From assembly GCA_021792405.1 (NCBI GenBank), contig JAJYUU010000041.1:1-35185 (forward strand): a stretch of DNA of 35,185 nt, written 5' to 3'. A program made the translations under genes and the position numbers. Shown here piece by piece: positions 3,325 through 7,940 of the stretch. Positions within the stretch are counted from its first letter, which is position 1. Every line of letters begins with the position of its first letter. This DNA comes from Actinomycetes bacterium. Lineage in GTDB: Bacteria; Actinomycetota; Actinomycetes; Streptosporangiales; Streptosporangiaceae. The notes under the pieces were generated by a model. The model worked only from the letters and a program-made list of their open reading frames with translations, was not told the origin of the DNA and did no database searches.

Positions 3325-4521
3325 TCAGGCGGCGGACTTTTCCAGGATGTGCACGGCGCACGCGCTGCCGAGCCCGATCACGTGGGTCAGCCCGACTTTG
3401 GCGCCCTCGATCTGCCGGTCCCCTGCCTCGCCGCGCAGATGCGTCGACACCTCGTAGATATTGGCGATGCCGGTCGCGCCCAGCGGATGACCCTTTGACA
3501 GCAGGCCCCCGGAGACATTGACCGGGATCTGCCCGTCACGCCACGGGCCGCGCCGGTCGATGAACTCCCCGGCACCGCCCTCCGGGCACAGCCGCAGGTT
3601 GTCGTAGTGGCATAGTTCCGCTGTCGCGAAGCAGTCGTGCAACTCGACCAGGTCCAGGTCCCCGGGGCCGACGCCCGCCTGCTCGTAGGCCTTGTCGGCA
3701 GCCTGGCGGGTGAGCGTGTTGACGTCGAACTGCACCGCGCCGCCGTCGACGTAAGGGTCGCTCGTCATGACCGACGCCGACACTTTCACCGCGCGCCGCC
3801 GCACGATGTCCGGCATCGACTTCAGCCGCTCGCCGCTGCAGAGCACGGCGGCTGCCGCGCCGTCCCCGGTCGGGCAGCACATCAGCAGCGTGTTCGGGTA
3901 GGCGATCATCTCCGCGGTCATGACGTCCTCGAGGGAGAACGCCTTCTGATACTGGGCCAGCGGATTCAGCGTCGAGTGCGCGTGGTTCTTCTCCGCCACC
4001 CTGGCGAACTGCTCGAAGCCGACGCCGTCATGCTGGTAGGCGTACTCCATGCCGGCTTGCGCGAACGTTCCCGGCATCAGGCTGGTGCCAAGGACGCCCT
4101 CGACCGGGCCGACGGCGCCGTACCGGCCGGACGGCTGGTACGGCCTGTCCTTGCCGGCCGGCTGGGCGCCGAGCAGGCCGCGCTTGCCCATCTGCTCCAA
4201 GCCGACGGCCAGCCCGATGCTGGCCTCGCCCGCCTTGATCGCCATCGCGGCAACCCTGAAGGCGGTTGCGCCGGTGGCGCAGGCGTTGGTCACGTTGTAC
4301 ACCGGGATCCCGGTCTGGCCGATCTGCTTCTGGAGCCGCTGGCCGACCCCGCCGGTGTCAAACAGGCAGCCGGCCGCGAGGATGTCCGCGTCGAAGATCG
4401 TCAGGCCCGCGTCGGAAAGCGCCGCGGTGGCCGCCTCGGTGCCGAGGTCGATGAGATCCCTGTCCTTGTAGCGCATGAACTTGGTCATCGCCACACCGAT
4501 GATCCACAGCGAGTCGGCCAT
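3325..4521 (-). CDS. Thiolase-family protein (SCP2/lipid-transfer type acyl-CoA thiolase)
   Basis: A 398-residue thiolase-fold protein. The nucleophile is Cys81 in NACATGATA. His295 lies in ELHDCF, His345 in SKGHPLGATG and Cys388 in GSACAV, in the order seen in the SCP-2/Ltp branch of actinobacterial thiolases. The ELHDCF motif replaces the NEAF motif of classical thiolases. Such enzymes act in lipid, sterol side-chain or related acyl-CoA degradation, often with a DUF35 partner. A DUF35 protein is encoded 3 kb away (7539-7940) but not in the same operon. The frame is open 39 codons further upstream. I chose the ATG at 4521 because GGAGGG precedes it at a good distance and the protein then begins directly with the conserved beta strand. 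Substrate is not predictable. Confidence 0.88.
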   Translation of the reverse strand: MADSLWIIGVAMTKFMRYKDRDLIDLGTEAATAALSDAGLTIFDADILAAGCLFDTGGVGQRLQKQIGQTGIPVYNVTNACATGATAFRVAAMAIKAGEASIGLAVGLEQMGKRGLLGAQPAGKDRPYQPSGRYGAVGPVEGVLGTSLMPGTFAQAGMEYAYQHDGVGFEQFARVAEKNHAHSTLNPLAQYQKAFSLEDVMTAEMIAYPNTLLMCCPTGDGAAAAVLCSGERLKSMPDIVRRRAVKVSASVMTSDPYVDGGAVQFDVNTLTRQAADKAYEQAGVGPGDLDLVELHDCFATAELCHYDNLRLCPEGGAGEFIDRRGPWRDGQIPVNVSGGLLSKGHPLGATGIANIYEVSTHLRGEAGDRQIEGAKVGLTHVIGLGSACAVHILEKSAA

Positions 4522-4712
4522 CGCAGCTGCCCTCCAGTGAGCTACCTCCACCATAACGTCGCAGACCGGATCGCCATAGCTGGCCGACTCGGCAGCACGG
4601 GGACTGGCGGAACGCAACGACAGGGCCCGGCACTGCAACCTAGCGGGCGCGCCGCGAATCTATCTATGCGACAGCGGTCGGCTGGCGGCCGCGGTGAAGG
4701 AGCGCTTGTCAC

Positions 4713-5261
4713 GTGACGACGGCGGAGGATGAGTTCGTTGAGTTCGCCGAGGCGGCAGCGCCGCGCCTGCGGCGGACCGCCTTCCTGCTCTGCGGCGACT
4801 GGCACACCGCGGAGGACTTGGCCCAGACGACGCTGGTCAAGATGTTCGCTTCCTGGCGGCGGATTAGGCGGCGCGACGCAGTCAACGCATATGCAATGCG
4901 GACACTGCTGAATACCTACCTGGCCGGGAGCCGGAAGAAACGGCCGGGGGAGGTGCTCACCGCGCGGTTGCCCGATCCGCCCAGTGAGGTGCCGTCCCCA
5001 GAACTCCGCATCACCGTGCTGGAGGCGCTGGCCACGCTGTCGCCCAAGTCTCGCGCCGTCGTGGTGCTGCGGTACTGGGACGACCTGAGCATCGAGCAGA
5101 CTGCCGCGCTGCTCGGCTGCACACCTGGCAACGTCAAGAGCCAGAGCGCTCGGGCGCTGGACAAACTGCGGCTGCTGCTCGATGACGCGGCGGGCGAGCC
5201 CAGCCCGGCAAGGCTCGCGGCCGCCAATCAGATGACACCGGGGAGGACCGGTCATGAATGA
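4713..5261 (+). CDS. ECF RNA polymerase sigma factor, SigE family
   Basis: A 182-residue group 4 sigma factor. Region 2 spans about residues 12-75, with the DWHTAEDLAQTTLVKMF core-binding segment. Region 4 spans about 100-155, with the helix-turn-helix SIEQTAALLGCTPGNVKSQS. The segment between is short and there is no C-terminal extension, so this is the compact actinobacterial SigE-type family. The GTG start (4713) has GAAGGAG ten bases upstream. Its 3' end overlaps the next start codon by 8 bp (5254-5261), so the two products are very likely co-translated. The downstream product is membrane anchored and is the natural candidate for its regulator. No target promoter is assigned. Confidence 0.93.
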   Translation: MTTAEDEFVEFAEAAAPRLRRTAFLLCGDWHTAEDLAQTTLVKMFASWRRIRRRDAVNAYAMRTLLNTYLAGSRKKRPGEVLTARLPDPPSEVPSPELRITVLEALATLSPKSRAVVVLRYWDDLSIEQTAALLGCTPGNVKSQSARALDKLRLLLDDAAGEPSPARLAAANQMTPGRTGHE

Positions 5262-6600
5262 GACATCGCTTCGCGCCCAGCTTGAGCTTGCTGTATCCGC
5301 CGAGCCGCCACTCGGCCTGCTTGTCGGCAATTCCCTGCGTGCGGGCCGCAAGCACCGGCGGCGGCGCCGGACGGCCGGAGCTGCCAGCCTGTCGGCAGCC
5401 GCGATCGTGCTGCTCGGTGCCGTTCCCGCGCTCACCACGGGCCCGGGCCACCAGGCCGGCCGGTCACGCTCGGCAGCGGGCAGGCACCCTGCGGCGGCCA
5501 GCACCGCGTACGTCGCGACCAGCAAGGGCACAGTCGTCCCGATCAGGCTGGCCACCAATACGCCCGGCGCGCCGATCCGGGTACCGGAGGGGATGCCTGG
5601 CCCGTTTATCACCAAATCTGCAGCTAGCGCGGATGGCCGGACTGTCTATGAGGTTGGCGACACCAGCGGCGGGGCGACGGTAACCTCGATCGACACCGCT
5701 ACCAACACGGCGGCGCGGCCGATCACGATCAAGGGCGCCTATGGTCCGCTGGCCTTCATGCTCGCTCCGGACGGGAAGACCGCATATCTGAGCTCCCCTG
5801 GCGGCCTGTTCCAGGTCAGCCTCGCCACGAGCACCGCACGCCGGGTGACCGGTTGCAGTTGGTCCGGCTGCCAGGCCATCGCGTTGACGCCAAACGGCAG
5901 GGCACTGTACGTGATCAGCGGCGACAAGTCCGTGATCGTGGTCAGGACGGCTACCAACACCGTCCTCAGCCGGATCAAGCTGCCTGCGAACTCGCCCGGC
6001 AGCCCGCTCAACATCGGGATCACGCCCAACGGCAAGACGGCTTATGTGGTGGACGCAGTTGCCGGGGCCAAGCCCGGCACCAACTCAGTTGTGCCTATCA
6101 ACCTGGCGACCAACACCCCGCTCCCGCCGATCAAGATCTGGGCGCCTGGGTTGGCGGACGGCCTTGTGATCGCGCCCGGCGGCCGGACTGCCTACGTGCT
6201 GAGCAGTCGCGGGGTCACGGCCATCGATACCGCGACAAACCAGGCCGAGGCGACTATCAGCCTGCCGGAGGCGGCCGGGAACGCCTACTACATGGTGCTC
6301 GCGCCGGACGGCAAGACCCTGTACGTGCTCACGCCGCGCGGGATCGTGCCGATCCGGACTGCCAGTGGCACCGTTCTGCCGACGATTGAGGTTCCTCACC
6401 TAACGACCTTCACCGTCATCGCGATCTCGCCCGACAGCCGGAGGATCTATGTGGGCGCAGCCATCAGCCACAGGGCATCAGGGCGCCGCTGGCCGAAGAT
6501 CGTGACTGCTGGCGTTGTCCCGGTCAATACTGCGACCCGCACGGCCGGCCGGTTCATCAACCTCGGCGGGGATCCATTCAGTATCGCCTTCGGCCAGTAG
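5254..6600 (+). CDS. Membrane-anchored YVTN-type beta-propeller protein, candidate sigma regulator
   Basis: A 448-residue protein with three parts. Residues 1-40 form a short cytoplasmic segment ending in a basic KHRRRRR run. Residues 41-60 form an Ala/Leu-rich membrane helix, giving an N-in topology. Residues 85-448 hold about eight repeats built around strands such as TATNTPL/PI and APDGKTAYV, the YVTN/surface-layer beta-propeller pattern. Overlap with the sigma gene suggests that the cytoplasmic tail acts on the sigma factor while the propeller senses something outside, but no classical zinc anti-sigma motif is present. It could equally be a surface protein controlled by the sigma factor. 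The propeller assignment is firm. The regulatory role is inferred from context. Confidence 0.85.
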   Translation: MNETSLRAQLELAVSAEPPLGLLVGNSLRAGRKHRRRRRTAGAASLSAAAIVLLGAVPALTTGPGHQAGRSRSAAGRHPAAASTAYVATSKGTVVPIRLATNTPGAPIRVPEGMPGPFITKSAASADGRTVYEVGDTSGGATVTSIDTATNTAARPITIKGAYGPLAFMLAPDGKTAYLSSPGGLFQVSLATSTARRVTGCSWSGCQAIALTPNGRALYVISGDKSVIVVRTATNTVLSRIKLPANSPGSPLNIGITPNGKTAYVVDAVAGAKPGTNSVVPINLATNTPLPPIKIWAPGLADGLVIAPGGRTAYVLSSRGVTAIDTATNQAEATISLPEAAGNAYYMVLAPDGKTLYVLTPRGIVPIRTASGTVLPTIEVPHLTTFTVIAISPDSRRIYVGAAISHRASGRRWPKIVTAGVVPVNTATRTAGRFINLGGDPFSIAFGQ

Positions 6601-6615
6601 GCCGCGGGCCACGCC

Positions 6616-7449
6616 TCACCGGGCGAGCGGGCCGATGCGGGCGATGCCGGGCCTGAACAGCGTTTCCTGCGCGATGCCCGCGGCAAGCACGCCGTCCCGG
6701 CTGAAGATCCGGCCGGTGTACATGCCGCGACCACCGGAAGTTGACTCGGGCTCCAGGTCCATCAGCACCCAGTCGTCGACCGCCGCCCTACGGAAGAACC
6801 AGACCGAATGGTCGATGCTGGTCAGCGGCCCGGAGATGGTGATGCCCGGCGTTGCCGCGAGGCCGGTGAACATGTCCGAGACATACGCCAGCGCGCACGC
6901 CTGCAGCGTGTCGCCGGCCAGGCTGTGCCGCGAGCGGATCCACATCCGGGACGGCCACTGCAGGCCGGGCTGCGGCTGCGGCGGCAGCCGGATCTCGACG
7001 CCGTGCATCCGGTGCCAGCGCTCGTCGTCGGGCAGGTCCTCCGGCGGCGGCACGTCCGGCATGGCGTGGGCCTGATAGTCCGAGCCTTCCTCGGCAACGT
7101 GGAAGGAGGCGGCCATGTTGAAGATGACCTTGCCGCTCTGCACCGCGATGACCCGGCGGTTGGAATACGAGCCGCCGTCACGGTCCCTGTTGACGGTGAG
7201 CAGCACCCGCCGTGACGCGTCGCCCCGGCTGAGGAAGTAGCCGTGCAGCGAGTGCGGCTGCCGCCCCTCCGGCACGGTCTGCGCCGCGGCGCGCAGCGCC
7301 TGCGCCGCGACCTGCCCGCCGAACAAGCCGGCGGGATCCTGGCTCACCACGACCGAGCGGAACATGTCGTCCTCGATCTGCTCCAGCGTGAGCAGATCAG
7401 GCAGCCCGGTGCCGGGAGTGCCGATGACAGGCTCGGCCAGACTCGCCAT
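6616..7449 (-). CDS. tesB: Acyl-CoA thioesterase II
   Basis: A 277-residue double-hotdog thioesterase that hydrolyses acyl-CoA to free acid and CoA in the cytoplasm. The catalytic residues known from E. coli TesB (Asp, Thr/Ser, Gln) align with Asp192 in YVSDMF, Ser211 in TSIDHSVWFFR and Gln261 in AQETLF. The N-terminal hotdog has the conserved GLFGGQVAAQAL and HSLHGYFL segments. Length is near the usual 285-290. No strong ribosome site precedes the ATG at 7449. It follows the DUF35 gene on the same strand by about 90 bp and may be co-transcribed with it. It is convergent with the beta-propeller gene, with only 15 bp between the stops. Confidence 0.93.
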   Translation of the reverse strand: MASLAEPVIGTPGTGLPDLLTLEQIEDDMFRSVVVSQDPAGLFGGQVAAQALRAAAQTVPEGRQPHSLHGYFLSRGDASRRVLLTVNRDRDGGSYSNRRVIAVQSGKVIFNMAASFHVAEEGSDYQAHAMPDVPPPEDLPDDERWHRMHGVEIRLPPQPQPGLQWPSRMWIRSRHSLAGDTLQACALAYVSDMFTGLAATPGITISGPLTSIDHSVWFFRRAAVDDWVLMDLEPESTSGGRGMYTGRIFSRDGVLAAGIAQETLFRPGIARIGPLAR

Positions 7450-7538
7450 GGGCCATTGATATCACAGCGGCCAGTCGCTCCGGAAAGCCATGAGCTCGGT
7501 CGCAGCCCGCTGTGGCGGTCCCGCCTGAAACGGGGCCG

Positions 7539-7940
7539 TCAGGCTGGCTCGTACCCGAAGCTGATCGCTTCGGTGCCCGCCGAGTCGGTTCCGATCGGAA
7601 AAGTGGTCAGCCGTACCTTCATGCCGAGCGTCACGTTGCCGGGCTCTGGCTCGATGCCGACGATGTTGGCCTTCACCACGCCGCCGCCGTCGAGGTCGAC
7701 GATGCCCGAGACGTACGGGACCGTTACCTCGGGCGTGGCCCGGTGCACGATCGTGAACGCCCGGAGGACTCCGGAGTTGGCCAGCCGCCGGGGCCGGAAC
7801 TCGCGCCTCCCGCAGTTCGCGCAGGCGTTGCGCCGGTCGAAGAACAGCGCTCCGCAGGACTCGCATTCGCTCGCGACCAAGTGCGGGTCGTCGCCAAGGC
7901 TGAGGTAGCCGACGTACGGAACTTGTCCCGGCATAGTCAC
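7539..7940 (-). CDS. DUF35 zinc-ribbon / OB-fold protein
   Basis: A 133-residue protein with an N-terminal rubredoxin-like zinc ribbon (Cys26-x2-Cys29 and Cys40-x2-Cys43) followed by an OB fold, the DUF35 arrangement. Members bind acyl-CoA and partner with SCP2-type thiolases or acyl-CoA hydratases, as in the mycobacterial steroid enzyme ChsH2. No partner thiolase is adjacent; the nearest is at 3325-4521. The start is either GTG 7940 or ATG 7934; neither has a clear ribosome site. It lies 54 bp downstream of ppc on the same strand. The family call is secure and the exact role unknown. Confidence 0.88.
   Translation of the reverse strand: MTMPGQVPYVGYLSLGDDPHLVASECESCGALFFDRRNACANCGRREFRPRRLANSGVLRAFTIVHRATPEVTVPYVSGIVDLDGGGVVKANIVGIEPEPGNVTLGMKVRLTTFPIGTDSAGTEAISFGYEPA

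Follow-up and report, generated by a model that had tools for sequence, protein, structure and literature searches.

An ECF sigma factor gene overlapping the gene of a membrane-anchored YVTN propeller: a probable sigma/anti-sigma receptor pair of the SigE family

The overlapping gene pair and its promoter

The window, which is the whole stretch of 35,185 nucleotides that was analysed (contig JAJYUU010000041.1 of an Actinomycetes bacterium, forward strand), carries two overlapping genes on the plus strand. The first (4713-5261, 182 aa, GTG start), with a Shine-Dalgarno-like AAGGAG 5' of its start at 4697-4702 on the same strand, encodes an ECF sigma factor. Pfam placed Sigma70_r2 at residues 13-77 and Sigma70_r4_2 at residues 102-152, that is, regions 2 and 4 only, and residues 3-157 scored 161.9 bits against the SigE-family model TIGR02983 (curated cut-off 141.55), which makes the protein a member of that family. 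The second gene (5254-6600, plus strand, 448 aa, ATG start) encodes a putative anti-sigma receptor and has a Shine-Dalgarno-like GGAGG within the sigma gene (5242-5246, plus strand). An earlier reading of this DNA, made from the sequence alone (the sequence-only reading), had proposed an ECF sigma gene sharing 8 bp with its neighbour; the sigma gene is real and the overlap is exact (5254-5261, plus strand).

The membrane partner has one hydrophobic segment only, a single predicted membrane helix at residues 42-60 (5377-5433, plus strand), so its basic inner tail is about 41 residues long. This tail (residues 1-41; 5254-5376, plus strand) is the putative sigma-binding segment, and its family consensus is MDETxLRxLLDxAxxxEPPxGxLVxNAxRAGxRLRRRRR. 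The ectodomain (residues 83-448; 5500-6597, plus strand) contains eight repeat-like units, whose starts lie between residues 84 and 397. Against TIGR02276, the model of the YVTN repeat, the partner scored 38.6 bits (cut-off 27.85). A single-sequence structure model (pLDDT 59.6, pTM 0.59) had as its best PDB match 1l0q_A, an archaeal surface-layer YVTN propeller (E 3.4e-16, 24% identity). By repeats and fold, the exterior is a YVTN beta-propeller, and the layout given in the sequence-only reading (an inner tail of about 40 residues, one helix and an external propeller) agrees with these results, as does its remark that a zinc anti-sigma motif is missing: HxxxCxxC occurs in neither protein.

Residues 1-60 of the partner hold no Cys and one His, and the identity of a zinc anti-sigma factor (class I, ZAS) was ruled out since neither protein carries HxxxCxxC. 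The available part of PMC7406223 gives about 101 ± 33 residues for the inner domain of class I anti-sigma factors and fewer than 50 residues for class II; with 41 residues, the inner part of the partner lies outside the first range and within the second, CnrY-like one. In CnrY, as described there, a very short inner segment of two helices wraps CnrH and suffices to hold the ECF sigma (PMC7406223). The window tail is short like that of CnrY, but it showed no sequence match to any PDB chain at E up to 1. It also had no Pfam match at E up to 0.1, and the partner matched no Pfam anti-sigma family. When sigma and tail were modelled jointly from the single sequence, with the overlap read as one continuous protein through a single four-letter step and with no alignment, the tail was drawn as two short helices at low confidence and no reliable complex was obtained (pLDDT 45.4, pTM 0.27, too low to use).

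Upstream of the pair lies a putative ECF-type promoter on the plus strand, with a -35 element TGCAACC at 4634-4640 and, 17 bp past it, a -10-like ATCT at 4658-4661. The dyad of CAACC and ATC was found in 11 of 14 regions 5' of related sigmas, a count inflated by kinship among these upstream sequences, against a maximum of 6 in 30 single-base shuffles. The set covered related sigmas only, not more distant ones, and excluded L002, L003 and L028 as near-duplicate or too short. TGCAAC was readable in 13 of the 14 regions, and the promoter pattern matched once within the window against 0.04 expected. It agrees with the core of the S. coelicolor SigE promoter, AAC and TC, given in the available part of PMC6767563. 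An ECF-type promoter common to the relatives suggests that the sigma may autoregulate its own operon. In the whole genome the strict promoter occurred at 3 sites against 4 for the reversed control, and we therefore claim no regulon; the two other genome sites had no filter-passing ORF starting on the same strand within 400 bp.

Pfam scanning of eight neighbouring proteins encoded between 35 and 12812 identified a trypsin-like protease, a cupin, a Rieske oxygenase, a thiolase, an acyl-CoA thioesterase, a ChsH2-like OB protein, a PEP carboxylase and FtsH, with no hint among them at the target of the sigma. The pair, itself on the plus strand, sits amid minus-strand genes (3325-4638 and 6616-7940) for the thiolase, the acyl-CoA thioesterase and the ChsH2-like OB protein, and it looks as if inserted into a lipid-metabolism cluster.

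Pairing and tail conservation among propeller loci

The partner was searched in 149 genomes, the window's own included, and the matches, in 14 of them, returned 30 loci. The tail scored at least 60 bits in 12 of the 30, and at all 12 a same-strand sigma of at least 287 bits lay directly upstream. Because these very pairs served to build the tail and sigma profiles, the scores are not independent, whereas the adjacency is. One of the 12 is the window (L001) and another a near-identical sister (L002), which leaves 10 pairs independent of the window. Neither tail nor sigma was present at 14 loci (12 distinct genes), among them L025 and probably L023, which start at a contig edge and whose N-termini are unseen. 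Three loci (L004, L013 and L030) had a more distant sigma together with another tail. A scan of genome contigs with the partner found the sister locus L031 only, and one further pair (L041) came from the sigma search. At L018 the partner frame is broken past 214 residues, and at L027 the contig ends.

The sigmas of the 11 other pairs are 55-99% identical to the window sigma. Nine of the 12 pairs, the window's among them, have a gene overlap of 8 bp, and the other three one of 32 bp. Among 10 full-length partners (L002, L018 and L027 excluded, L041 added), mean pairwise identity was highest in the tail (residues 1-39, 52%), equal in the helix and the ectodomain (31% each) and lowest in the linker (22%). 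These results indicate that overlap and tail are kept in relatives while the propeller diverges, and that the pairing is beyond chance. The sequence-only reading had named a lack of conserved co-occurrence elsewhere as evidence against itself; instead, the pairing recurs in relatives, with 12 pairs when the window is counted.

The same loci bear on another explanation, in which the propeller would be a conventional effector, secreted or anchored, that simply shares a transcript with the sigma, and the tail would be the long n-region of a signal peptide with a VPA-like motif past the helix. A motif of the form [VIL]P[ASTGLV] does lie near the helix end in 8 of 10 propeller partners and fits signal peptidase cleavage; class-wide, however, this signal-peptidase-type motif is weak (25 of 87 partners against 14.0 expected). 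The sigma-less propellers L008, L011, L017, L021 and L022 start, by eye, with short signal-like N-termini, unlike the paired ones. Against it, too, the tail is better conserved than the ectodomain and is shared by many unrelated exteriors next to SigE-family sigmas. We consider this explanation quite improbable.

Two groups of loci show variation around the pair. The sigmas of L004, L013 and L030 scored 145.4, 134.4 and 124.5 bits against TIGR02983, with only L004 over the cut-off, and the protein encoded downstream of each has a propeller-like exterior and a different tail. This suggests that propellers were joined to this sigma/partner layout more than once. L015 (G002 contig 602), the last of the 30 loci, is a decayed relative of the partner: its tail is degenerate (19.1 bits), two stop codons interrupt the match, and no sigma was found upstream.

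Short-tail partners across the SigE family

Tails of the same kind also occur on shorter exteriors, next to closely related sigmas (L044, L054 and L056); the partners of L044 and L054 were scanned and had no NCBIfam match. A tail-only profile searched in 296 class genomes gave 14 matches outside the window. A same-strand sigma was present at 12 of these, in 9 directly upstream within 53 bp. At L060 the sigma is upstream of the tail, with only its first half readable in that frame; at L071 it is weak and separated by a 143-bp gap, and at L064 it lies downstream of the tail. The tail matches at L062 and L067 had no sigma. A phylum-wide tail search in 198 genomes returned the window, the already-known L066 and two low matches.

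The family was then surveyed from the sigma side. TIGR02983 was searched in 60 class genomes and matched in 46. From the matches listed, which were ranked by score so that weaker members are under-sampled, 110 sigmas were taken, all over the cut-off; they comprise 30 loci (one per genome) and 80 other listed places. A partner was called when its helix started at residue 25-75 and a large exterior followed. By this rule, the 110 sigmas among the matches listed gave 87 short-tail membrane partners, 15 cases classed as "other" and 8 with none. After removal of L114, on inspection a lipoprotein with an extended start, 86 of the 110 SigE-family sigmas among the matches listed have a short-tail partner directly 3'. 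L080, called partnerless, shows a short-tail partner under a looser rule, and eight of the "other" loci (L084, L087, L120, L122, L129, L130, L151 and L168) resemble the layout by eye, with a weaker helix or a longer tail. L171 ends at a contig edge. Rule-called partners overlap their sigma by 4 bp in 68 cases and by 8 bp in 8. The SigE family thus seems mostly to carry short-tail membrane partners.

The exteriors of the 87 partners fell into 57 sequence clusters (56 without L114). One representative of each of 20 exterior clusters was scanned with Pfam: 5 were over the cut-off (PASTA at L083, Kelch at L161, FG-GAP at L096, Germane at L143 and Gmad2 at L100), 5 matched below the cut-off only, including a BNR-like domain at L144 and PD40 at L145, and 10 had no match. 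On a profile built from 79 tails found across the class but outside the window's genus, the window tail scored 16.6 bits against 6.8 for the best of 200 shuffled controls; of the 10 propeller-set tails, only 6 exceeded that highest control. Other SigE-family partners matched two NCBIfam models weakly, NF052375 (anti-sigma factor) with 18.5 bits and NF038083 (CU044_5270 family) with 16.9-18.3 bits, each against a cut-off of 100, and we take both as leads only.

We tentatively propose that the tail of about 40 residues may be an unrecognised anti-sigma module carried by dozens of unrelated sensors. The SigE family would then consist mostly of receptors, to which propellers (YVTN, Kelch, perhaps FG-GAP and BNR-like) may have been added several times independently, and the window pair would be one YVTN version, with several paralogues in some congeneric species.

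Tail similarity correlated with sigma similarity (r = 0.262), a value that none of 500 within-genome permutations reached; r was 0.058 for the helix region and -0.075 for the ectodomain. When sigmas more than 0.6 alike were removed, r fell to 0.115 (91 of 500 permutations; first 33 residues 0.102, 27 of 500), and at a similarity limit of 0.5 to 0.036 (220 of 500; first 33 residues 0.081, 53 of 500). Both correlation runs included L114. The correlation may reflect co-inheritance, and co-evolution of tail and sigma was dropped as support because it fails this redundancy control.

Some members of the family are arranged differently. Three high-scoring SigE-family sigmas from three genomes, L079 (G000 contig 276, in the window's own genome), L074 and L075, have no short-tail partner next to them; the gene 41-79 bp 3' of each is acyl-CoA or AMP-forming ligase-like by eye. 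At L111 and L114, both within the TIGR02983 set, the sigma gene is followed by a lipoprotein-like gene and then by a response-regulator-like gene. We take these sigmas to be SigE-like and their gene order to be that of sigE-cseA-cseB.

L111 and L114 pass the same TIGR02983 cut-off as the window sigma, and loci of this kind in the same sigma family fit a further explanation, in which the window sigma is controlled by transcription alone and its partner is a CseA-like accessory envelope protein. The model would be S. coelicolor SigE (ECF39), which the available part of PMC6767563 describes as under two-component transcriptional control through CseBC within the CseABC system, with no anti-sigma, whereas the window sigma has a membrane partner. 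That partner has a conserved tail and a helix, unlike the lipoprotein-like start in L111 and L114. Moreover, Pfam found no two-component domain in the eight proteins encoded between 35 and 12812, and the window sigma has an ECF-type promoter of its own. Control by transcription alone therefore appears very improbable here.

Characterised precedents and a proposed mode of action

The beta-propeller is also a feature of TolB, and Thermoanaerobacter tengcongensis belongs to a different phylum from the window organism. In this bacterium Tt-RpoE1/Tt-TolB (TTE0323/TTE0322) is an experimentally shown ECF/anti-sigma pair: according to the available part of PMC3397946, residues 1-39 of Tt-TolB bind the sigma in a two-hybrid assay and transcription is inhibited in vitro. 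Like the window pair, it consists of a sigma gene followed by an anti-sigma gene whose product has a helix at residues 39-61 and a large TolB-annotated exterior (PMC3397946). The Tt genes are separated by a 2-bp gap and the Tt exterior extends to residue 645, whereas the window genes overlap by 8 bp, and the two pairs are likened by layout, not by tail sequence. RsgI of Clostridium thermocellum is similar in plan to the window partner, as far as described in the available part of PMC12203970: its inner N-terminal domain binds SigI, one helix follows, its outer sensors (CBM3, CBM42, PA14 and GH10) are swappable, and release is by stepwise proteolysis. SigI/RsgI differs in using a sigma-I factor, while the window sigma is a SigE-family ECF sigma; RsgI also has a periplasmic autocleavage domain.

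With a layout whose precedent is characterised and which is frequent within its own SigE family, the window pair is not a new kind of system. The sequence-only reading knew of no characterisation of the arrangement, and this part does not stand as worded, given Tt-RpoE1/Tt-TolB (PMC3397946) and a layout that most of the SigE-family sigmas examined share. Its other part, that the partner would be an anti-sigma-like receptor sensing through the propeller, finds good support in the comparisons: the pairing is conserved, the tail is more conserved than the propeller, a close sigma accompanies the tail wherever it occurs among propeller loci, and ectodomains are swappable.

We consider it likely that the window pair is an autoregulated two-gene unit of a sigma and its anti-sigma receptor. 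The SigE-family sigma would be held inactive at the membrane by the inner tail of about 41 residues, which may serve as a minimal anti-sigma domain built of two short helices. The condition of the outer YVTN propeller would be relayed into the cell through the single helix, and the propeller ligand is probably a component of the cell envelope or surface. Once the ligand is met, stepwise proteolysis or a conformational change would make the tail release the sigma, which would then transcribe its own operon from the TGCAACC-N17-ATCT promoter, plus further targets. A site-2 protease (PF02163) is encoded in the source genome and likewise in 14 of 14 controls, and is thus uninformative.

The conserved pairing, the overlap and the tail predict contact with the sigma but not its sign. 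The partner might accordingly be a positive or dual regulator, whose tail would tether the sigma or make it more stable and would be required for its activity, instead of being simply inhibitory; a dual activator-inhibitor behaviour has been claimed for RskA in the available part of PMC7509140. Tt-TolB and RsgI, which share this layout and have been characterised, are both inhibitors, however, and we regard a positive or dual role as unlikely. An inhibitory receptor remains our preferred reading.

The window pair looks like the YVTN variant of a broad and little-described class of partners of SigE-family sigmas. This class looks underexplored: the family seems mostly to carry such partners, though its model, S. 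coelicolor SigE, has no anti-sigma. A literature search, with the 2021 ECF reclassification outside its scope, gave no description of a short-tail SigE-family partner class, which may already be in print; in the available portions of the YVTN literature, propeller genes are mentioned solely for being sigma-dependent or located nearby. Should the tail prove a genuine anti-sigma module, a large fraction of actinobacterial SigE-family sigmas would become one-step membrane receptors, whose inputs could be guessed from their outer domains, for example peptidoglycan for PASTA and surface ligands for propellers. Many regulators that lack a known input would thereby gain testable signals, and the sensor design would be compact and swappable.

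Two species of the window's genus (G007 and G008) carry six and four close paralogues of the sigma, respectively. Propeller partners lie beside 8 of these 10 paralogous sigmas (L005, L010, L018, L020, L027, L028, L029 and L041). GCAACC is present in the promoter of 7 of the 8 pairs, namely the 7 whose upstream sequence was read, and this common element suggests cross-talk among the paralogues.
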